This document shows, in pieces, positions 6,759-29,706 of a stretch of DNA of 56,908 nt. The stretch covers positions 1-56,908 of the IMG/VR virus record IMGVR_UViG_3300022413_000013; one strand, 5' to 3'. The notes under the pieces were generated by a model, which saw only the letters and a program-made list of their open reading frames with translations, did not search any database and was not told where the DNA came from. A program made the position numbers and the translations under genes. The stretch comes from a virus. Each line of letters starts with the position of its first letter. Within the stretch, counting starts at the first letter, position 1.

Positions 6759-8303
6759 CTACCGCCCCCGAATAGATTTCGCCCGCGCCGTTTGCTTAAC
6801 TTTAAATAAACGATAGCGAGATTCATCATAAACGTGGTCCTCGGCGTCTTTATCGATGTCGTCCAAATCCTTATCAGATCTTGCCAAGACTGGAACTGTT
6901 CTTTTGAACTGCTCACAAATACTAAAAATAAATAAGCCTGGCTTTTCCCGTTGCTTTGGGTTTTTGTTAGCGTCGAACGGCGCCGCCTCAAAGAGCAACG
7001 TTCGCATGCGTTGCGCGCCGTTCTTCCGGCTGTCCTTCCCCTTGCTCGCGCGCAACCATGACACGCCCTCTTTGCGCATGTCGGCCGCGATCGTGTGCGA
7101 CTGGCCTTGGCCGGTACTGTCGCCGAAGATCTGGCTATCGGCCGGACCCGGAAAGATCTTCCGCTTGCCGAAATACAGCATTTCGCGCTTTTTGATCCCC
7201 TTGGCGATCTCGGTCGCCGGCAAGTTCAGCCCTTCGTTGGGCTTGTTGTTCCAGCCGTACCACTCGGCGACCCTGAAGACGTCGCCGCGTATCGTTTCCA
7301 GTTTCTTCCCGTTTTTGAGCTTGACGGTCTCGCCGTTGCTTTCCGCCCACCAGCCCACTGAAAACGGGCGAGATCCGCCCCAATCGAACGAACGATCGAT
7401 CCGCCAGTTATCCGGGATGTCGAAGGGCTCGACGACGTGGACGCTGGGTCGCCAGAGATCATCGAACATCCCGCCCGCGACGATGTCCCAAGAGCCGTCG
7501 ATCCACGCTTTCAGCATTTCCGGGTTAGCCGCCGAGGCGGCGATACGGTCGACGTAATCAGGGTCCGCCGTCAACAAGACCTTGTTTTCGCTAAGCGAAC
7601 TATGTATTGCCACCCTCGGCGGTTCGGGCTTGCCTCGATGGTCCATCGAGTCCCTGACGATAGGCCCGAGGCGCGAACCGCCAGCTATCGGCAGTCGAAA
7701 GCGAAACTTCACCCAATTGTGGCCGACGCCATAGGGGTTTGTCGTCGCCCGGATCTTCTTAGGGATTCCGACGATCGGCGAGCGGCAACACGAAAACATG
7801 CTGATGTAGCAATCTGGCGTCGGCCAGGTCGTCAGCTCTTCCCAGGCAATCCAGGGGTACGCGTGGCCGTGATATGACCAGTAGTCGCGCGGTTTAATGA
7901 ACTGTCGGAAATAGAGCTTTTCGCCGGTCGGCCACTCCCAAAACGACTTGGCGCGATTGTAGCTGGCTTTCGGAAAGCACGTCGAGAACAGCGACTCCGA
8001 CTTCCCGATGATGTCTTCGAGTTCGGGATAGGTGCGACGGAAGAGAACGCCGCGCCAGGCGCGCCCCCAGCCCTTGCCGACGTGCTGAGCGAAGTCGTTA
8101 AGAAGCGTCTCGGTCTTGCCGCCGCCGCGGTTACCCTCGAGAAGGCACTCGAAGACCGGGCAACGAAGGAACGCCTCTTGACTGCCTGCCTGTGCCGCCC
8201 AATGCGGTTGGATATCCGGCTGATCGTCCTCGACTAGGAAAGGCTTTAGGCCCGTTGGCGTCGAGCGCCATTCAAGCGCTTGTGTGCTGTGCATGCCATT
8301 CAT
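6759..8303 (-). CDS. terL: terminase large subunit
   Basis: This 514-aa ATPase-nuclease packages DNA into the prohead. Visible motifs are Walker A GNRGGGKT (57-64), Walker B WIAWEE (151-156), the coupling motif TTNPYG (187-192), and RNase-H-fold nuclease acids at DWGGS (307-311), D389/D395 and DH (489-490). The start overlaps the end of terS by 32 bases (ATG 8303; ATG 8294 is an alternative). The packaging strategy (pac or cos) cannot be read from the protein alone. Confidence 0.96.
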   Translation of the reverse strand: MNGMHSTQALEWRSTPTGLKPFLVEDDQPDIQPHWAAQAGSQEAFLRCPVFECLLEGNRGGGKTETLLNDFAQHVGKGWGRAWRGVLFRRTYPELEDIIGKSESLFSTCFPKASYNRAKSFWEWPTGEKLYFRQFIKPRDYWSYHGHAYPWIAWEELTTWPTPDCYISMFSCCRSPIVGIPKKIRATTNPYGVGHNWVKFRFRLPIAGGSRLGPIVRDSMDHRGKPEPPRVAIHSSLSENKVLLTADPDYVDRIAASAANPEMLKAWIDGSWDIVAGGMFDDLWRPSVHVVEPFDIPDNWRIDRSFDWGGSRPFSVGWWAESNGETVKLKNGKKLETIRGDVFRVAEWYGWNNKPNEGLNLPATEIAKGIKKREMLYFGKRKIFPGPADSQIFGDSTGQGQSHTIAADMRKEGVSWLRASKGKDSRKNGAQRMRTLLFEAAPFDANKNPKQREKPGLFIFSICEQFKRTVPVLARSDKDLDDIDKDAEDHVYDESRYRLFKVKQTARAKSIRGR

Positions 8304-9617: not shown

Positions 9618-9695
9618 TGGTAGCAGGGGTAGGATTTGAACCTACGACCTTCAGGTTATGAACCTGGCGAGCTAACCGGACTGCTCTACCCTGCT
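9618..9695 (-). tRNA. tRNA-Met (CAU), initiator-like, CCA encoded
   Basis: The gene folds completely. The acceptor stem AGCAGGG/CCCTGCT has 7 pairs, the D stem is GAGC/GCTC, the anticodon loop TTCATAA has CAT at 9660-9658, the T arm is GTAGG-TTCAAAT-CCTAC, and A73 is followed by an encoded CCA. Initiator features are A11:T24, the AGGTC variable loop, and G30:C40 and G31:C39 in the anticodon stem. Non-initiator features are a paired A1:T72 instead of the usual 1:72 mismatch, and A29:T41. C27:A43 is mismatched. It shares a transcript with the membrane gene 9304-9597. Initiator function is probable but unproven; tRNA-Ile2 (lysidine) looks less likely. Confidence 0.95.
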
Positions 9696-9802: not shown

Positions 9803-10204
9803 TCAGCGCCGAGCCGATCGCGTCGGCGAGCGCGACAGCTCGCCTTTGGCGAATTTGGAAGCCAGGGTTTCCGCGCGGCGCTGAGCCACTAGGCGCCGCC
9901 GCGACGCCGCGAAGTCGAGGCGTTTCGGGCCGTCAAGCTTTCGGTGGACGATGCGACAGCTTACGAAGTAGCCGTGTTCATTCTTGCGCAAGCTGTATGC
10001 ATATGTGACGGGCGATCCATGTCCGTTTTTGCCGGCATCGACCTCGACGAATTCCAGCTCTTGGCCTTCCGCGTCTTTCGTCGAATATAGCGCGCCGCTT
10101 TCGCGCAACTGCCTTCGGCGTTCTGCGGCCGATCGGATGGCGGGATTATAGCCCGGCGACAGACGAGGCTTGCGTTCGTCGGGCTTCGAGGCAACATTGT
10201 TCAT
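9803..10204 (-). CDS. hypothetical basic protein
   Basis: This 133-aa protein starts at ATG 10204 after a clear AAGGAGA ribosome site. It is rich in Arg/Lys, with an N-terminal helix (SAAERRRQLRESG), a central segment with the look of beta strands (SPVTYAYSLRKNEHGYFVSC) and an Arg-rich helical end. No known family. A hairpin at 10244-10282 separates it from the regulator gene 10301-10576. Confidence 0.7.
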   Translation of the reverse strand: MNNVASKPDERKPRLSPGYNPAIRSAAERRRQLRESGALYSTKDAEGQELEFVEVDAGKNGHGSPVTYAYSLRKNEHGYFVSCRIVHRKLDGPKRLDFAASRRRLVAQRRAETLASKFAKGELSRSPTRSARR

Positions 10205-10243
10205 AGCTTGGGATCTCCTTGCTAGAGGCTTCCATGCTTAAGG

Positions 10244-10282
10244 ACCGCCCGGACGGGCATACCCTGCTTTAGTCCGGGCGGT
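10244..10282. terminator. strong 11-bp hairpin after the XRE regulator gene
   Basis: ACCGCCCGGAC (10244-10254) and GTCCGGGCGGT (10272-10282) are perfect inverted repeats with a 17-base loop. They lie just past the stop of the regulator gene 10301-10576 on the minus strand. No T-run follows, so it may attenuate transcription or stabilise the mRNA end rather than act as a classical intrinsic terminator. Confidence 0.55.
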
Positions 10283-10300
10283 TCGGCTGGCTAACCCAGC

Positions 10301-10576
10301 CTACCGGCTACGCCGGATCTCTTCGTTGCTACCGCCGAGCAACCGTTTCTCTTTCCTAATCACGCGAATCCATCCGCCTTGACGGTATTGAATGCCGCCT
10401 CTTTCGAGGCCCCTCTCGATGCGGCGGATTGTGGCGGGCGTCGCCTTGTCAAAGGCGTCCTGTGTCTTTGACAGCCTGGCCAGCGTGGACCTCCCGACGC
10501 CACACAGGCCCGCGGCCGTCGAAAGGTCCATTTCCAAGCCCGCCAGAGCCATTCGCAACATTTTACGGGTAAACAT
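10301..10576 (-). CDS. XRE/Cro-type HTH transcriptional regulator
   Basis: In this 91-aa DNA-binding protein, residues about 16-55 (MDLSTAAGLCGVGRSTLARL to TIRRIERGLERGGIQY) form a five-helix XRE fold, with the recognition helix around GVGRSTLARL. The C-terminal part is basic. It is transcribed from a TTGACA-17-TATTAA promoter that contains two TGATCA palindromes and overlaps a divergent promoter facing the beta-barrel operon. It probably represses itself and that operon. Confidence 0.85.
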   Translation of the reverse strand: MFTRKMLRMALAGLEMDLSTAAGLCGVGRSTLARLSKTQDAFDKATPATIRRIERGLERGGIQYRQGGWIRVIRKEKRLLGGSNEEIRRSR

Positions 10577-10582
10577 AGCGTT

Positions 10583-10631
10583 TTAATATGATCATCAGAG
10601 TCTTGTGTCAATGATCACCATGTGACTATAA
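10583..10631. promoter_or_regulatory. overlapping divergent promoters with TGATCA operators
   Basis: Minus strand: TTGACA (10611-10606), 17-base spacer, TATTAA (10588-10583), driving the XRE regulator. Plus strand: TTGTGT (10603-10608), 17-base spacer, CTATAA (10626-10631), facing the beta-barrel operon. TGATCA palindromes at 10589-10594 and 10612-10617 are 23 bases apart, about two helical turns, so a dimeric repressor could cover both promoters. Confidence 0.7.
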
Positions 10632-10762
10632 GAGGGTTGACCGAGGACTCGGTCGGCCGGCGGCAAGGCGGGCCATCACCGGATGATGCAATGGGCGCGG
10701 GTGTGTCGCGCTGTGGTGCCTTGTCGCCGGCCTGTCTGACACTATCCACGCAAGAGGGAAAC

Positions 10763-11326
10763 ATGGCAATGAACAGAGCAATGATGCAAGCGATCGTCAT
10801 CGCGATCTTGGCCAACGCGGGCCCTGCTTCCGCCGACGAGTTCTATTTTCAGCTCGATTTGAGCGTCGATCATTACGGCGATAACGAGCTAGACGGCGAC
10901 GACTTTGACATCGATACCGGCGGAGGTCTGTCCGCCCGGATTGGCAAGGCCTTCGAGCATTTCCGCGGCGAGGTCGAAATCGGCTTCAACGCCTCGACGA
11001 TCGATGTGGGCTTCGATGCCGGCGATGATGACCTCGACTATTACCAAGGCTCCTTGGTCCTCGCGGCCTACAAGGATATAGGCCCGGCTTACATCGGCGC
11101 CGGCGCCGGCCTGGTTTATCAGAGGATCGAGACGGAAGTGCTCGGCGTCGATATCTCGGACGATGAGACCAACGCGATTATTCACGGCGAGGCCGGCTTT
11201 AGCTTCCCGATCACAGGGTCCGTCTCGATCGTCCCACACTACCGCGCGACATGGCTTCCAGGCTTCGATCTCGACGACGAGGTCGTCGTGCATTCGGCGC
11301 GCGTCGGCCTTCGTGTGGGGTTTTGA
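10763..11326 (+). CDS. outer-membrane beta-barrel protein with signal peptide
   Basis: This 187-aa protein starts at ATG 10763 after AGAGGG. A signal peptide (about residues 1-24, ending AGPASA-DE) is followed by alternating polar and hydrophobic strands (FYFQLDLSVDHYG, FRGEVEIGFNAST, YQGSLVLAAYKDIGPAYIGA and so on) and a final strand ending LRVGF. A C-terminal Phe is the classic BAM recognition signal. The size fits an 8-strand OmpA/OmpW-like barrel. Known: phage barrels such as Lom alter the host surface. Inferred here: receptor masking, serum or phage resistance, or superinfection exclusion. It leads a four- or five-gene operon controlled by the divergent XRE protein. Confidence 0.88.
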   Translation: MAMNRAMMQAIVIAILANAGPASADEFYFQLDLSVDHYGDNELDGDDFDIDTGGGLSARIGKAFEHFRGEVEIGFNASTIDVGFDAGDDDLDYYQGSLVLAAYKDIGPAYIGAGAGLVYQRIETEVLGVDISDDETNAIIHGEAGFSFPITGSVSIVPHYRATWLPGFDLDDEVVVHSARVGLRVGF

Positions 11327-11329
11327 ACC

Positions 11330-11734
11330 ATGGGCATCAATGACCACACGCAAAAGATCGGCAACGCCATGCAAGCCGGCGAGCTTTTGAGGCACTATTT
11401 CAGAGTGGCTGGCGTCAACGTTGGAGGGGACTCGGCCGTCGAAATCAACCACATAGTCGACCACATCATCGACGCTGCCGTGTCCGCCGTTCGCGCCGAA
11501 GACGGCCGGCGGGAGTCGCTCGAGCGGGGTGCCGAAAAGGTGCCGCCGTTCAATCTATACGAAGTTCGCGCCGACATGGTCGGCGATGGCGGCACGATCA
11601 AAATCACCGGCCCGTCCGCTCAGATTCACGCCATGTGCGCTTTGCTGAGTGGCACGCACATCTTCGACGCCGAAAGCGGCGTGTGGCTCTTGCCGGCCGA
11701 ACCAGAGAAGGCGACAGACGATGGACAAGCCTAA
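11330..11734 (+). CDS. hypothetical protein, barrel operon
   Basis: This 134-aa protein starts four bases after the barrel stop. The N-terminal half is helical and the C-terminal half has an alpha/beta look (YEVRADMVGDGGTIKITGPS then AQIHAMCALLSGTHIFDAES). No family recognised. Tight spacing shows that it is co-transcribed with the outer-membrane gene. It overlaps the next gene by 14 bases. Confidence 0.75.
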   Translation: MGINDHTQKIGNAMQAGELLRHYFRVAGVNVGGDSAVEINHIVDHIIDAAVSAVRAEDGRRESLERGAEKVPPFNLYEVRADMVGDGGTIKITGPSAQIHAMCALLSGTHIFDAESGVWLLPAEPEKATDDGQA

Positions 11735-12323
11735 AGCGTACGTCCGCGACGACTGGGTCGTGTGGCTCGCGTTCGAGCTTAGAAAGGCCGGCTTCCCCGT
11801 CGAGACGACCGCCGACGCCGACGAGCCCGGGCTGGTCGTCGATGGCGTGACGCTTTCCCGCTCTCGCTTCATGGTCTCGCGCCACACCTTCAGGCAAGGC
11901 TATGGAGCATGGAAGCGCACCCTGAACGCCGAGTTCAAAGTCGCGCCTTATCACGGGCAACCTGTGGCCTATAAGCCGCGCCAGGATGGAACCTATAACA
12001 TCGAAGCGATCGGCAAGCGCTTGAAAATCGCCGCGACTAGCGAGATCGAGGCCGAAAAGCGCGCGGCATATTCGAGAAAGCTTCGCGACCAGGAAGCCGA
12101 AAACCGGGCGAAAATCCGCGGCCTGGTCGTGCCGCGGGTCGCGGCATGCATGGGCAAGTACGAGGAATGGATCGACGCCACCAATGAGCCGGGCGTGTTC
12201 TCGATCTCGATCAAGCGGCGAGTTGCGCAAGAAGACGTTAAGTCCGTGCTCGAAGCCTGTCGCTCGATCCATCTGCAGAGCATCCAAGGCAAGCGCCAGA
12301 AGAAGGAGGGCGCCGACACATGA
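11721..12323 (+). CDS. hypothetical protein, barrel operon
   Basis: This 200-aa protein starts at ATG 11721 within the end of the previous gene. It has an N-terminal alpha/beta part with YVRDDWVVWLAFELRKAGFP, then a basic helical middle and end (IEAEKRAAYSRKLRDQEAEN). It shares the look of phage proteins of unknown function with a helical C-terminus. No catalytic motif is evident. It overlaps the next gene by ATGA, indicating coupled translation. Confidence 0.75.
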   Translation: MDKPKAYVRDDWVVWLAFELRKAGFPVETTADADEPGLVVDGVTLSRSRFMVSRHTFRQGYGAWKRTLNAEFKVAPYHGQPVAYKPRQDGTYNIEAIGKRLKIAATSEIEAEKRAAYSRKLRDQEAENRAKIRGLVVPRVAACMGKYEEWIDATNEPGVFSISIKRRVAQEDVKSVLEACRSIHLQSIQGKRQKKEGADT

Positions 12324-12583
12324 GCTACGAGAAGGCGAAGTCGATCCTGTCCGCGGTCGACGTCTTGAACGAGATCGTCGCGACTGCAGCGATCGAAGAC
12401 ATCGCGATTGCGCTGCAAGAGATCGCCGAGAACTACAAAATCGCCGAAGACCACGAGGCCGCCCGACTCCACAGAGCCGACCACGAGATCTTGTGGTTAT
12501 CGGTCAAGCGATGCCGCCGCTTTGTCGAACTCGACGAGTATCAGCGCGTTGCCGGCGACATCATCCTAAGCGAGGAAAGCTAA
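12320..12583 (+). CDS. small helical protein, unknown
   Basis: This 87-aa, entirely helical protein is rich in Ala, Ile and Glu with a His-rich middle (EDHEAARLHRADHE). It overlaps both neighbours (ATGA before, TAATG after), so it belongs to the same translational unit. No family recognised. Confidence 0.7.
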   Translation: MSYEKAKSILSAVDVLNEIVATAAIEDIAIALQEIAENYKIAEDHEAARLHRADHEILWLSVKRCRRFVELDEYQRVAGDIILSEES

Positions 12584-12819
12584 TGCCAGCCATGGACATT
12601 CGAGTCGATCCCATCCCCGCGATCCGAGCGAATGCGATAGCGTCGAGACCTAAGACGGCGACACAGCGGGCTAGACATGACGTGACCTTGCGGTTGCTCG
12701 CCGAAATCGATCGCGTTCGCCTGTTCGAGGATGAGGTTAGGCGCCTGGCCAGAGAAGGCCATTTTTCCGAGCCTCGCTTCGACCATCTCATGGCGCTTCT
12801 GTCCAACAATCAAAGATAA
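12583..12819 (+). CDS. small basic protein, last gene of the barrel operon
   Basis: This 78-aa protein starts at ATG 12583 in a TAATG overlap. It is Arg-rich and helical with no recognised domain. It ends the operon: 180 bases further on lies a long inverted repeat that would stop transcription from both sides. The gap 12820-12995 is AT-rich (repeated TTAA and TAATAT) with no gene visible. Confidence 0.65.
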   Translation: MPAMDIRVDPIPAIRANAIASRPKTATQRARHDVTLRLLAEIDRVRLFEDEVRRLAREGHFSEPRFDHLMALLSNNQR

Positions 12820-12995
12820 CGCGGAAAAGCTAGAGGTTGGGCGCGCGACCTCATGTAAAACATTAACTTTAATATGCTAATATTCTCGTAAACGCTTGCA
12901 GAATAAGAATTAATCAAGCTGTCAACGGCGAATTCTTGTTTGCGCAGAAAGCTAAAATTTGGCAACTGTTACCTGTTCGTCCTTCACGAGCCCTG

Positions 12996-13036
12996 CATAC
13001 CAAGCGCCTAGCTTGCCAGGCTTGGCGCTTGGTATG
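12996..13036. terminator. bidirectional terminator-like hairpin
   Basis: CATACCAAGCGCC (12996-13008) and GGCGCTTGGTATG (13024-13036) are perfect 13-bp inverted repeats with a 15-base loop that can itself pair further. The element lies between two convergent operons (the plus-strand gene ends at 12819, the minus-strand gene at 13060), the expected place for a shared terminator. U-runs are absent, so efficiency is uncertain. Confidence 0.65.
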
Positions 13037-13059: not shown

Positions 13060-13710
13060 CTACTCGCCGTCGCGCTTATAATAGCTGATCTCGCTCGCGA
13101 TCTTGCCGAGTTCGATCTGGTCGGCGTCCGACAGACCGGGATAAGGAGTCGCATCGTAATCCGGGTTTTCATCCCATCCAGGCGGAATTAAATACACGCC
13201 TTCGCGCGCCTCGACGTTGGCCATGTAGCGCTTTAAAAGCTCACGGTAGTCGAGTTGCCAGGCCTCGCCGTCCCATACCTTCACCTGGTCGGCCTCGGTG
13301 TCATGCCAGCGTTGACCGATCGGCCGCTTATCGAGCGCCTGGCTATCGATCGGTTCGAAAGGTTCTGCGGGGTAGGACTCCTGTAAAATAGGGTCGCCCC
13401 CCGCCGCCTTGAAGACAAGATAATCGCCTGCGTTGACGTGATCTATAATCGTCAGGCCCCAGCCTGTTGTTGGATACATCTCCAATATGCGATCGCCGGT
13501 ATCCCTGGAAACCAGAACGAATGATGGCTTACCAGCTACTGGTGTCTGTGCGGACTCTTCGACGTCGCGGTCGTAAACGCCATTTGTAATAGGCAGCTCG
13601 AATTTCTTGATGAGCTGGCCGTTGACGACAATCTCGACGGACAGGTCTCCCCATCCCTTGAGGTCAACCGGCTGCGCTTCGTCCTGGTGCGTGCGAATTT
13701 CGTCAGCCAT
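13060..13710 (-). CDS. hypothetical protein downstream of par genes
   Basis: This 216-aa protein starts at ATG 13710 (an upstream ATG at 13731 is less likely). A beta-rich N-terminal domain (LSVEIVVNGQLIKKFELP, then SFVLVSRDTGDRILEMYP) is followed by a segment ending in a helical acidic tail. The WHDTEADQVKVWDGEAW stretch resembles the phage-fibre motif where a product is described by a short beta hairpin. It is the last gene of the ParA operon. The function is unknown and a virion role cannot be excluded. Confidence 0.7.
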   Translation of the reverse strand: MADEIRTHQDEAQPVDLKGWGDLSVEIVVNGQLIKKFELPITNGVYDRDVEESAQTPVAGKPSFVLVSRDTGDRILEMYPTTGWGLTIIDHVNAGDYLVFKAAGGDPILQESYPAEPFEPIDSQALDKRPIGQRWHDTEADQVKVWDGEAWQLDYRELLKRYMANVEAREGVYLIPPGWDENPDYDATPYPGLSDADQIELGKIASEISYYKRDGE

Positions 13711-14087
13711 CGGCCAACCCTCCCTTTTCATCGATCACGAGCACCAGATCGTGCACTCGGTAGTATTGCAGCCCGCCCGCTTTGTCGGTGCGCATCAGCG
13801 GCGACAGAACGGCTTCGGAGTCACTGTGATTGATCCGAAACTCATAGGTCGACATCTTGCGATCGTCGGCCATTTCTTGCTGGCATGTGAAGCGGATCAA
13901 GGCCGCCGGGACGGACACGCCGCCGACGTCGAGGCGGATCGGCACGCCGACGAAATTGCTAGGGTCGCCGCGGGCGACGTCGTCAGACTCGACAAAAAAA
14001 ATCCCAGGTAACCGCCTTTCCCCATGTAATCGCGGCGCCGGCCGAACCGGCGAAAAACCCTCGAAACTCCAGTCGCTCGCCGCTCAT
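13703..14087 (-). pseudogene. gene split by a +1 frameshift at a T8 homopolymer
   Basis: Reading starts at ATG 14087 (overlapping the previous stop by ATGA) and runs AITWGKAVTWDFF before a quick stop. The other frame resumes at VESDDVARGDPSNF and continues without a break to a stop at 13703. The switch falls exactly in eight T residues on the minus strand (8 A at 13994-14001 on plus). Seven T would give one 127-aa, beta-rich protein. An internal start at 13945 or 13855 would give a shorter product. It could be a sequencing error, a phase-variable tract or a real mutation. Function unknown; it lies in the par operon. Confidence 0.75.
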
Positions 14088-14356
14088 TGCTGTTTGTCCC
14101 AAATGTCCAACATGATCGCCAACAGCGCCGGCTTGCTTTTGCCACTGTCACGACACGCCGTCTCGAACCTGGTCTTCAGGCTCGCCGGCAAGCTCATGTT
14201 GCACTGTACGCGGTGCTCTTTGGGCGGTTCGGCCTCACGGCTTGGCATGCCAGAGCGTGAGGCGACTTCTTCCGCCGTCGGCTTTCGGCCCTTGGGCGCC
14301 GTCCGTACGCCGGTAAGGTCGAGCCTTTCCAAGCCGATTTCGCGTCGTTCTCTCAT
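14084..14356 (-). CDS. ribbon-helix-helix partner of ParA
   Basis: This 90-aa protein follows parA with an ATGA overlap. Residues about 52-90 ([20 protein letters not shown] followed by [15 protein letters not shown]) fit a ribbon-helix-helix fold: one beta strand then two helices. The N-terminal 50 residues are basic and probably disordered. Known: ParG, Omega and similar small RHH proteins are centromere-binding partners of small ParA ATPases and repress their own operon. Inferred here: it binds the CTAGC-type repeats near 15092, 15992 and 17897, stimulates ParA and regulates par. Confidence 0.8.
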
Positions 14357-15036
14357 GCTACAGCCCTCTCTTCGCTGATGATGTCCACAACCGCTTGCGT
14401 GAAGCCCCTGGCATTCTCGACCGCGGCCTTGATGTTGGTGACGGTCTCGGCTTCGATGTCTTTCAGCATCAAGCCGAGATCCCACATCGCGCCGAATGCG
14501 TCGCGGTCGTGAAGCTCGACCGGTACGACTGCCACGAGCTTGTTCTTCCGAATGCCGGCCGCAATCCGTCGAGCTGTTCGGCTTTCGGCGACGACTCGAG
14601 TCCTCGTGAATGCCAAGGCGAAGGGGATAACGCGCCTTTGCGCCCTGCCTTCGAGCGCGATCTCTTCGACGACCTTGCAAGCCATCTCGGCGTCGAGCCG
14701 CTGCTTTTGGGTTGGCACGAGCACCAGGTCGGCCCGGCTGATCGCGAACGAGGTGCGCCTCGACCCGATGCCTTCGAGGTCGACGATCACGAAATGGCTT
14801 CGCCGAGTCGCCTCGTCGATCTCGTCGATGATCGTGCGCTCGGAGTCGTTGGTAACGACCTCGAAGTTTGATGGAATGCCGACATAGCCGCCGCCATACC
14901 AAAAAGTGATAGGCTCGTTCGGGTCCGCGTCAATGATGGTGATCGGCACTTGCTCGGCGAGCTGTTGGGCGAGAACGAGTGCTGTCGTGCTCTTGCCCGA
15001 ACCGCCCTTTCCGTTCGCTACGACGATTGTCGGCAT
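14353..15036 (-). CDS. parA: ParA-family partition ATPase
   Basis: This 227-aa protein has a deviant Walker A KGGSGKST (10-17), Walker A' IIDADPNEP (34-42) and Walker [10 protein letters not shown] (about 81-89). It is the short form without an N-terminal HTH, typical of type Ib plasmid partition, which pairs with a small RHH protein just as here. It would segregate a low-copy circular prophage. The 76-base upstream gap carries a CTAGG/TAGCC palindrome (15092-15116) that is a likely operator or centromere. Confidence 0.9.
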
Positions 15037-24506: not shown

Positions 24507-24980
24507 ATGGACAGTGTCGACAGCAATTCCAGTAATAGCTGGATTGCCCGTGCTGCGGCACTGTCCACCGAGTCAATTAGACTGCCACGGGTAGCTTGCC
24601 TATGTGCCGCCTGTTTCGTCTTCGGGGTTGCAGTGATGTACTTTCGACCAGGCCCGCCGACTCCGGGCGTGGTTGAAGCGGAGATCCCGGCGCGGAGTGT
24701 GGGAACGCTCGAACAATGCCGGGCTGATCTGGACGAAGCCGAACACATCATTGACCTGTCGCATGGTGCGGCGGGCGTCGTGGTTGGCGAATTAGCAAAA
24801 TGTCTAGGAAGGACAATAGGTCATGATAATAGCGTTCACGTCGAGAAAAGGCGGCGTCGGCAAATCGACGATGGCGCGGACCCTGGCGATAGCGATGAAA
24901 CAGGTCGGATTGAACCCGCTTCTCGCCGATCTCGACCCGCAACAGTCGACGTCCGACCGTTGGGCAAAGCGACGCCTTGA
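24507..24980 (+). CDS. putative membrane-anchored protein, weak
   Basis: This 157-aa reading frame starts at ATG 24507 after ACGAGG. One membrane segment (VACLCAACFVFGVAVMYF, about 29-46) is followed by a Pro-rich linker and a periplasm-type helical region with two Cys (LEQCRADLDEAEHIIDLSHG to LAKCLGR). The last 158 bases overlap the ParA-like gene in another frame and encode an Arg-rich non-natural tail, so the natural protein may depend on the first 105 residues. If not real, 24484-24822 would hold no gene. Confidence 0.45.
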   Translation: MDSVDSNSSNSWIARAAALSTESIRLPRVACLCAACFVFGVAVMYFRPGPPTPGVVEAEIPARSVGTLEQCRADLDEAEHIIDLSHGAAGVVVGELAKCLGRTIGHDNSVHVEKRRRRQIDDGADPGDSDETGRIEPASRRSRPATVDVRPLGKATP

Positions 24981-25845
24981 CCTGGTCGACGAGGCGGTTC
25001 ACGTCGACACGCATCGGTTTAGGCAGGCGAGGCAACTTCGCGAATGCCATGAGACATGGGACCACGTGATCGTTGATTGTCGGCCTTATGACAATGTCCT
25101 GATTCGTGATCTGGCCGGCGAGGCCGACGTCATCTTTCTGCCGAGCGGACCCGCCGACGACGACGTCGAGCCTACCCTCGATCTGCACAAGATCTTGCGC
25201 AATGAGCACACGACACAGGCGCGTGTTGCCGCTGTTCTGAACAACGTCGGGTCCCTGCCTGAGTGTTGGCGAGCCCGCACCGTGTTCGAGCTTGGCAAGT
25301 GCGAGCTGGTGCCGGCGGCGATGCCTGGACGGATCAGCTATCGGTCATGTTTGAACGCTGGTCGGACGCTGCAGGAAAACACGCGCGGCAACCTTCATGC
25401 GCGCTGCAACAAAGTGCTCGAAGGGATGTTCGAAATCATCGGGCAAGCAGCGCAAGGCGAGTATCGCCCGCTGACATGGTGGCCAGAGGAAGAAGCGACC
25501 ATCGAGGACGAGGCCGACGAGGGCGCCAAGATCGAAATCAATGTGCCGCCCGCGCTCGCGGCGACCGCCAGGTCGACAGAAGCGGTTGAAGTGGCGCCGG
25601 CGGAAGAGACGCCGGAACCGCCGGCACCAAAGCGCAAGAGGACGACCAGGCACGCAAAGGCAGAGACCGAGGCGACGCCGACCGAGAAAAAGGTCGAGCC
25701 GCCTAAGCCGCGGCGCCAGCGGGCGACCAAAGGGGCCAAGCCAGCGGCGGCAAAGGCGCCGGCGAAGCGGAAACCGGCGGCCAAGAAGACGGCGGCAAAG
25801 CCCGTTCGGCGAGCGACAAAGCCTGAAACCGCAAGCGCCGCTTAG
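24823..25845 (+). CDS. ParA-like ATPase with a histone-H1-like C-terminal tail
   Basis: This 340-aa protein has deviant Walker A KGGVGKST (9-16), A' LLADLDPQQS (33-42) and Walker B HVIVDC (81-86) in the first 210 residues. Residues about 260-340 form a Lys/Arg/Ala/Pro-rich tail (PKPRRQRATKGAK, AKRKPAAKKTAAKPVRRATK) like bacterial H1/AlgP proteins. An acidic spacer (220-240) joins them. Known: ParA proteins bind nucleoid DNA; a fused basic tail would strengthen this. No RHH or ParB partner follows. It is distinct from the parA at 14353. Confidence 0.85.
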   Translation: MIIAFTSRKGGVGKSTMARTLAIAMKQVGLNPLLADLDPQQSTSDRWAKRRLDLVDEAVHVDTHRFRQARQLRECHETWDHVIVDCRPYDNVLIRDLAGEADVIFLPSGPADDDVEPTLDLHKILRNEHTTQARVAAVLNNVGSLPECWRARTVFELGKCELVPAAMPGRISYRSCLNAGRTLQENTRGNLHARCNKVLEGMFEIIGQAAQGEYRPLTWWPEEEATIEDEADEGAKIEINVPPALAATARSTEAVEVAPAEETPEPPAPKRKRTTRHAKAETEATPTEKKVEPPKPRRQRATKGAKPAAAKAPAKRKPAAKKTAAKPVRRATKPETASAA

Positions 25846-28341: not shown

Positions 28342-28592
28342 AGCTCCAAGGCTTGCGCTTCGACTTCGATTACCAGCTCGTGAACGACGACGACGAGCCC
28401 CTTTGCTCGATGTGTTACGACCCGATCGACGACGACCAAGTGCCGTTGCTGATCTGGCTTAAAGACGCGCGTTGGATGGCGACCGTTTGCGACAACTGTT
28501 TGGAGGATGTTTTTAAGCTCACTCCGTTCATTAATACGGCCGACGTCGGCGTCAACGAATTTCAAAAGACTCACGTCGAGGTCGGCGAATGA
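28338..28592 (+). CDS. small zinc-ribbon protein
   Basis: This 84-aa protein is called from ATG 28338 in ATGA overlap. CSMCYDPIDDDQ and CDNCLEDVF, 27 residues apart, give a four-Cys zinc ribbon. The rest is alpha/beta. Probably a nucleic-acid or protein binding accessory factor. Confidence 0.7.
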   Translation: MKLQGLRFDFDYQLVNDDDEPLCSMCYDPIDDDQVPLLIWLKDARWMATVCDNCLEDVFKLTPFINTADVGVNEFQKTHVEVGE

Positions 28593-28660
28593 GCATCGAG
28601 CCGTGGGTGTGGGTGGCTTTGATCATTTTTGTGATCATCATCATATGGCCAAGCGGATAA
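28589..28660 (+). CDS. 23-aa single-helix membrane peptide
   Basis: The frame opens at ATG 28589 in ATGA overlap with the zinc protein and closes at TAA 28658-28660, overlapping the integrase start by 16 bases. After MSIEPW comes a purely hydrophobic run VWVALIIFVIIIIW, long enough to cross a membrane. It could act as a toxin-like or regulatory membrane peptide, or simply be the ribosome-coupling leader for the integrase. Confidence 0.5.
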   Translation: MSIEPWVWVALIIFVIIIIWPSG

Positions 28661-29706
28661 TGAACAAGCGCGAGACACAGATAGGCGACTATTGGCTAAG
28701 CCGGCGGCCTGGCCGGCCGACGTTCTTTCGCACGTGGTTCGATCCCGAGACGCGGCAAACGCGCCGTGCGTCGCTCGGAACGGCCGACAAGGCGGAAGCG
28801 CAATTGATCATGGCGAAGTGGGTTGCAGCTCACGGCACCATGCGCGAATTGCCGCTCGACCAGGTCAAGCTCGTGGACATCCTCGAAAGGTACTGGCAAG
28901 CCGTCGGCCGGCATCTCGTCAGCTCGCGGGCGCAAGCCGTATCGTATCGCTATTGGAAAGACTTCTACGGCGACGCCTCGATCGCCGACCTCACGATCGA
29001 CCGGCAAGAGGCCTTCGTCGCATCCCTGAAAGGTCGGGAATTATCTTCGAGCTATATCAAAAAGGTCGTCGGCTTTGGCCGCTGGGCTTTAAACCGAGCG
29101 CGCGAGCGTCACGAGATCGCCGAGCCGCCGCGGATCATCAAGATTCGAGAAGCGAGGCCGGCAATGCGCCGACTCGAGCCGGACGAGGTCGCCCGATTGA
29201 TTGAAGCTTCGCGACGCCGGCCGCACGTTTACATGTTTGTAATGCTAGCGCTCAACACACTATCGCGACCTGGCGCGCTTCTCGAACTCCACCTCGAACA
29301 GTGCGATTTCGAGCGCGGTTTGATCTATCTCAATCAAGCCGGCCGATCGCAGACGAAGAAGCGCCGGCCGGTCGTGCCGATGACCGAGACGTTGCGGCGA
29401 ATCCTCGAACTCGCGCCGTCCGGCCGCCTGGTGCAATTCGCCGATCGTCCGGTAAAGCAAATCAACAGAGCGTTCGCCGGCGCCGTCAAGCGCGCCGAGC
29501 TGCCGCGCGACGTCGTCCCGATGACCATGCGGCGGACCATGGCGCGCGAGCTTCGACGCCGCGGCGTCGGCTCTTGGGATGTCGCCGGCCTTATGGGCCA
29601 TCGCCTCGACGAGCGGACGACCGAGATTTATGCGGAGTATGATGCCGGCTATCAAAAACAGGCCGTCGAGGCGATCGACGCCTTTATGAATGAGGTCGCG
29701 AAATGA
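28645..29706 (+). CDS. int: tyrosine-family site-specific integrase
   Basis: This 353-aa protein is called from ATG 28645 (frame open to 28507 without good start). It has an N-terminal arm-type and core-binding part (about 1-165) and a catalytic part: R208 (LSRPGALLEL), K238-K239 (QTKKRR), M293-xx-R296 where most members have H-xx-R (PMTMRRT), H319 (LMGH) and Tyr329 (EIYAEY). Known: HxxR His is often replaceable. It probably inserts the phage into the host chromosome; the hairpins at 30086-30127 are a possible attP area. Next gene overlaps by ATGA. Confidence 0.9.
   Translation: MAKRIMNKRETQIGDYWLSRRPGRPTFFRTWFDPETRQTRRASLGTADKAEAQLIMAKWVAAHGTMRELPLDQVKLVDILERYWQAVGRHLVSSRAQAVSYRYWKDFYGDASIADLTIDRQEAFVASLKGRELSSSYIKKVVGFGRWALNRARERHEIAEPPRIIKIREARPAMRRLEPDEVARLIEASRRRPHVYMFVMLALNTLSRPGALLELHLEQCDFERGLIYLNQAGRSQTKKRRPVVPMTETLRRILELAPSGRLVQFADRPVKQINRAFAGAVKRAELPRDVVPMTMRRTMARELRRRGVGSWDVAGLMGHRLDERTTEIYAEYDAGYQKQAVEAIDAFMNEVAK

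Follow-up and report, generated by a model that had tools for sequence, protein, structure and literature searches.

A phage-borne outer-membrane beta-barrel gene opposite a small XRE-type regulator in a probable temperate siphovirus

Introduction

Phage cargo of the sort described here is commonly termed a moron. Lambda Lom, of the Ail/Lom family, is a temperate-phage protein that forms a small barrel in the outer membrane; in the lambda cI/OR switch a helix-turn-helix (HTH) regulator, made from a leaderless mRNA, acts at operator copies ~23 bp apart between divergent promoters. Expression of the Lom orthologue of phage 24B is independent of phage regulatory pathways (PMC3342100).

The locus analysed here lies in a 56,908-bp IMG/VR virus record (IMGVR_UViG_3300022413_000013; G000), the whole of which we call the window. 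Like Lom, its predicted product is a small outer-membrane barrel from a temperate phage; unlike Lom, it has no Ail/Lom match, and its gene would lead an operon opposite its own XRE gene. It resembles bacterial barrels of family PF13505 in matching the family above the cut-off and in having a distant bacterial relative, and differs from them in being phage-borne, in its very acidic loops and in its position beside an XRE gene. The unit shares with phage morons its apparently optional nature, a regulator of its own, boundary hairpins and a strand opposite to that of its neighbours, and departs from them in its non-foreign composition. With lambda cI/OR it has in common divergent promoters, an HTH regulator, operator copies spaced about as in lambda and, by prediction, a leaderless regulator mRNA. 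Unlike lambda, it offers two short candidate sites and a single-domain protein, and it stands apart from the main repressor region of its phage.

Results

The phage and the layout of the unit

The window is very probably the genome of a temperate siphovirus, given an integrase, a siphophage-like terminase, tail genes, a RecE/RecT pair and a YdaS/DicC-type regulator; the integrase in particular makes lysogeny likely. Judged solely from the family of the XRE regulator, the host is probably an alphaproteobacterium. The phage also encodes a tRNA-Met (CAT) at 9618-9695, between the terminase side and the barrel unit, and two ParA-like partition proteins (phrog_164; 14353-15036 and 24823-25845) alongside its integrase.

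The unit spans 10244-13036, and its tightly packed genes lie on the strand opposite to their neighbours (Table 1). The window holds just three perfect inverted repeats whose arms reach 11 bp and whose loops do not exceed 30 nt; two of these, overlooked in the original prediction, bound the unit. The left repeat is a candidate boundary or terminator and the right one a candidate bidirectional terminator; termination at either would have to proceed without a T run, which both lack. No direct repeats were found at the unit ends. Sequence evidence supports well the grouping of these genes as an independent, divergently controlled barrel unit.

Table 1. Features of the barrel unit and of its phage context
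Feature	Position	Strand	Evidence or remark
Terminase large subunit	6759-8303		Closest to siphophages of Roseobacter, Rhodobacter and Pseudomonas
Perfect inverted repeat, 11-bp arms, 17-nt loop	10244-10282		Behind XRE gene; fold z -2.7; without T run
Small XRE-type HTH regulator, 91 aa (P0005)	10301-10576	-	Small-XRE profile; HTH_3 below cut-off
Predicted XRE promoter TTGACA-17-TATTAA	10583-10611	-	10/12
Candidate operator copy 1, ATGATCATCA	10588-10597	+	Repeat search; contains TGATCA palindrome
Weak candidate rightward promoter GTGTCA-16-TATAAG	10605-10632	+	9/12; no better than chance
Candidate operator copy 2, ATGATCACCA	10611-10620	+	Repeat search; 23 bp from copy 1
Perfect dyad GACCGAGGACTCGGTC	10639-10654		Near predicted rightward start
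Outer-membrane beta-barrel protein, 187 aa	10763-11326	+	PF13505 match; coding bias
Gene B, 134 aa	11330-11734	+	Relative in phage G758, 51% over 46 aa
Gene C, 200 aa	11721-12323	+	Full-length relative in phage G758, 24-25% (24% over 194 residues)
Gene D, 87 aa	12320-12583	+	ATGA overlap with C
Gene E, 78 aa	12583-12819	+	TAATG overlap with D; weak coding bias
Perfect inverted repeat, 13-bp arms	12996-13036		Between convergent operons; fold z -5.3 and -3.8; without T run
YdaS/DicC-type regulator (main repressor region)	21 kb		YdaS/DicC-type matches
Integrase	28507-29706		Phage record

The barrel protein

The original prediction of an exported barrel ending in LRVGF agrees with a Pfam scan, in which residues 12-181 match PF13505 (profile positions 3-169 of 175) at 38.7 bits (cut-off 28.7); codon bias likewise supports the gene as coding. 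We take the N-terminus to be a signal peptide ending in ASA, ahead of DEF, and the C-terminal VGLRVGF presumably serves as a signal for the BAM machinery. A topology drawn by hand gives eight putative strands joined by short turns, with a net charge of -4 to -7 on each of the four outer loops, and the mature protein has a pI of 4.05. A single-sequence AlphaFold model (pLDDT 31) was too poor for use.

The Ail/Lom family is absent from the Pfam matches of the barrel up to E 1. Single-protein scans, which detect close relatives only, returned no relatives in phages, plasmids, viral contigs or genome contigs. Two weak matches emerged among 369 genomes of one class; one of them (L064, 1474-1986) is a distant bacterial relative at 30% identity and is itself a PF13505 barrel. 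A match in L038 was rejected, as stop codons interrupt its reading frame.

The XRE regulator and the control region

The divergent XRE gene of the original prediction is borne out by a family profile, although HTH_3 itself scores below its cut-off on the protein (14.5 bits). A genome search led to a small regulator (L039), whose relatives are annotated as plasmid-borne alphaproteobacterial ‘transcriptional regulators’, and a home-made profile (A1) was built from nine regulators of this type. Among all open reading frames of the window, this profile picks P0005 alone over threshold (E 3.5e-6), and hhalign places it with the family at 92%. The match covers both the HTH and the G-I-x-Y/F segment after it (alignment A2), as in small alphaproteobacterial XRE proteins, and begins at residue 1, which supports the ATG at 10576 as the start. 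Single-protein scans of viral contigs and plasmids gave no relatives. Two other matches were set aside: one in the PDB to engineered TPR proteins, a repeat artefact, and one near the terminase in L020, which is a different, larger protein and perhaps a terminase small subunit.

Between the two gene starts lie TGATCA palindromes at 10589 and 10612. TGATCA is over-represented throughout the window (22 sites against 10.6 expected), while the pair ATGATCAYCA spaced 23 bp apart is unique in it, with 0.01 expected when three mismatches are allowed, for a pattern chosen post hoc. The leftward promoter is the only TTGACA in the window with a -10 element of at least 4/6. This -10 element ends six bases before the XRE ATG, and a leaderless XRE mRNA is predicted for that reason. 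One copy of the repeat sits directly against the leftward -10, and the second falls next to the leftward -35 and within the spacer of the rightward candidate. Given this geometry, a role for the XRE protein as a repressor working through the TGATCA sites is plausible. Of the two palindromes and the overlapping sigma70-type promoters originally proposed, the sites and the leftward promoter stand, whereas the rightward promoter is chance-like.

The dyad near the predicted rightward start is a candidate second operator or leader hairpin. The rightward leader holds a long stem, yet it folds no better than shuffled sequences (z -0.97), and it matches no Rfam family for a riboswitch or other known RNA. 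The proposed independence from the switch at 21 kb holds: the regulator there is of the YdaS/DicC type, and its region lacks any TGATCA.

Genes downstream of the barrel

Four open reading frames follow the barrel gene, rather than the three originally counted. Codon bias supports B, C and D as coding and is weak for E. Informative family matches were found for none of them in Pfam, PHROGs, NCBIfam or PADLOC; gene C has a weak PHROG match to a ‘head maturation protease’ (E 0.0006), and its AlphaFold model was too poor for use. Single-protein scans gave no relatives of gene C in viral contigs, phages or plasmids, and none of gene B in viral contigs or phages.

Relatives of both genes were reached in phage G758 (L067) by way of the right-hand neighbour gene (13060-13731). 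The tail module of this phage is related to that of the window, with the genes that match best reaching roughly 50-65%. In G758 the relatives of B and C stand side by side in reversed order, also convergent on the neighbour gene, and no barrel match was detected. Since these relatives adjoin without a detectable barrel, B and C are probably separable from it, as general phage accessory genes rather than dedicated partners, and the unit may be composite. Beside the unit, window positions 13078-13323 and L067 positions 10001-10246 are 95% identical over 246 bp; the tail genes common to both phages have diverged much further, which points to recent exchange at this place.

Tests of cargo status

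Ten phage records whose terminases are related, and which may be fragments, contain no PF13505 gene, and the barrel would therefore be optional cargo; G758, also possibly a fragment, likewise gave no barrel match. A scan of related phages for similar cargo on the opposite strand ahead of the terminase gave a DNA ligase and DUFs, and no barrel. No phage relative was found that both lacks 10244-13036 and is closer than those compared. The GC content of the unit is 0.596, against a median of 0.583, and its codon bias is phage-like; its composition is thus not unlike that of the rest of the phage. As for a promoter and terminator of its own, the unit has a good leftward and a weak rightward promoter, and strong hairpins that lack T runs. 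Its composition is not foreign and no insertion between genes adjacent in a relative came to light, which leaves its status as a moron incomplete.

PADLOC gave a single weak match to a defence model (E 0.031), short of a defence assignment, and no family in PADLOC, PHROGs or NCBIfam supports lysogenic conversion, receptor masking or defence; as roles for the unit, these three are guesses.

Discussion

We lean, at somewhat better than even confidence, toward a moron-like, XRE-controlled, envelope-modifying and self-contained operon in a temperate siphovirus. The small XRE protein, probably translated from a leaderless mRNA, would bind both ATGATCAYCA sites in the stretch that separates the divergent starts, limiting its own promoter and repressing the rightward one. 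The rightward transcript, presumably a single operon message, would yield a strongly acidic barrel of eight strands, destined for export and insertion into the host outer membrane, together with four small cytoplasmic phage proteins. We infer any function beyond outer-membrane insertion; the likely use would be an altered surface of the lysogen or of the newly infected cell, as in Lom-like lysogenic conversion or superinfection exclusion. Counted in favour of the operon are the PF13505 match, the putative strand topology with its acidic loops, the XRE profile, the unique repeat pair and its placement, the hairpins, the opposite strand and tight packing of the genes, the integrase and the lack of a PF13505 gene in the ten records with related terminases; counted against it are the chance-like rightward promoter, hairpins without T runs, the commonness of TGATCA, phage-typical GC and codon usage, the relatives of B and C found without a detectable barrel, and the uninformative AlphaFold model of the barrel.

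These genes could instead be ordinary early lytic accessory genes that the XRE protein merely silences in the lysogen, the barrel acting early in infection, for example to exclude rival phages. The operator copy within the rightward promoter spacer fits such silencing, and in the related phage the relatives of B and C, which converge on the same neighbour gene, lie next to a run of small hypothetical genes; a simple early operon would, however, not be expected to have its own boundaries and regulator, and we regard this explanation as a real possibility but a doubtful one. Quite unlikely, in our view, is that the XRE gene serves to regulate something else, for example by opening a leftward message that heads for g133, tRNA-Met and the terminase genes, and that the barrel operon has a separate, unregulated promoter. 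The XRE promoter is indeed far better than the rightward one, and the XRE and packaging genes share a strand, but the XRE gene is followed at once by a perfect 11-bp hairpin, and the repeats sit between the two starts.

A bolder form of the preferred self-contained operon, which we hold to be unlikely, is a second XRE switch that toggles the host outer membrane through an acidic, non-Lom barrel, uncoupled from the lysis-lysogeny decision, for superinfection exclusion or surface conversion. As read from its sequence, the unit would be phage-borne outer-membrane cargo of a fairly ordinary kind, and by family it is not Lom. With one regulator, two candidate operators and one membrane product, it is a compact and testable unit, and would add to the few phage-encoded surface proteins a barrel of the outer membrane that is not Lom and comes with a regulator of its own.
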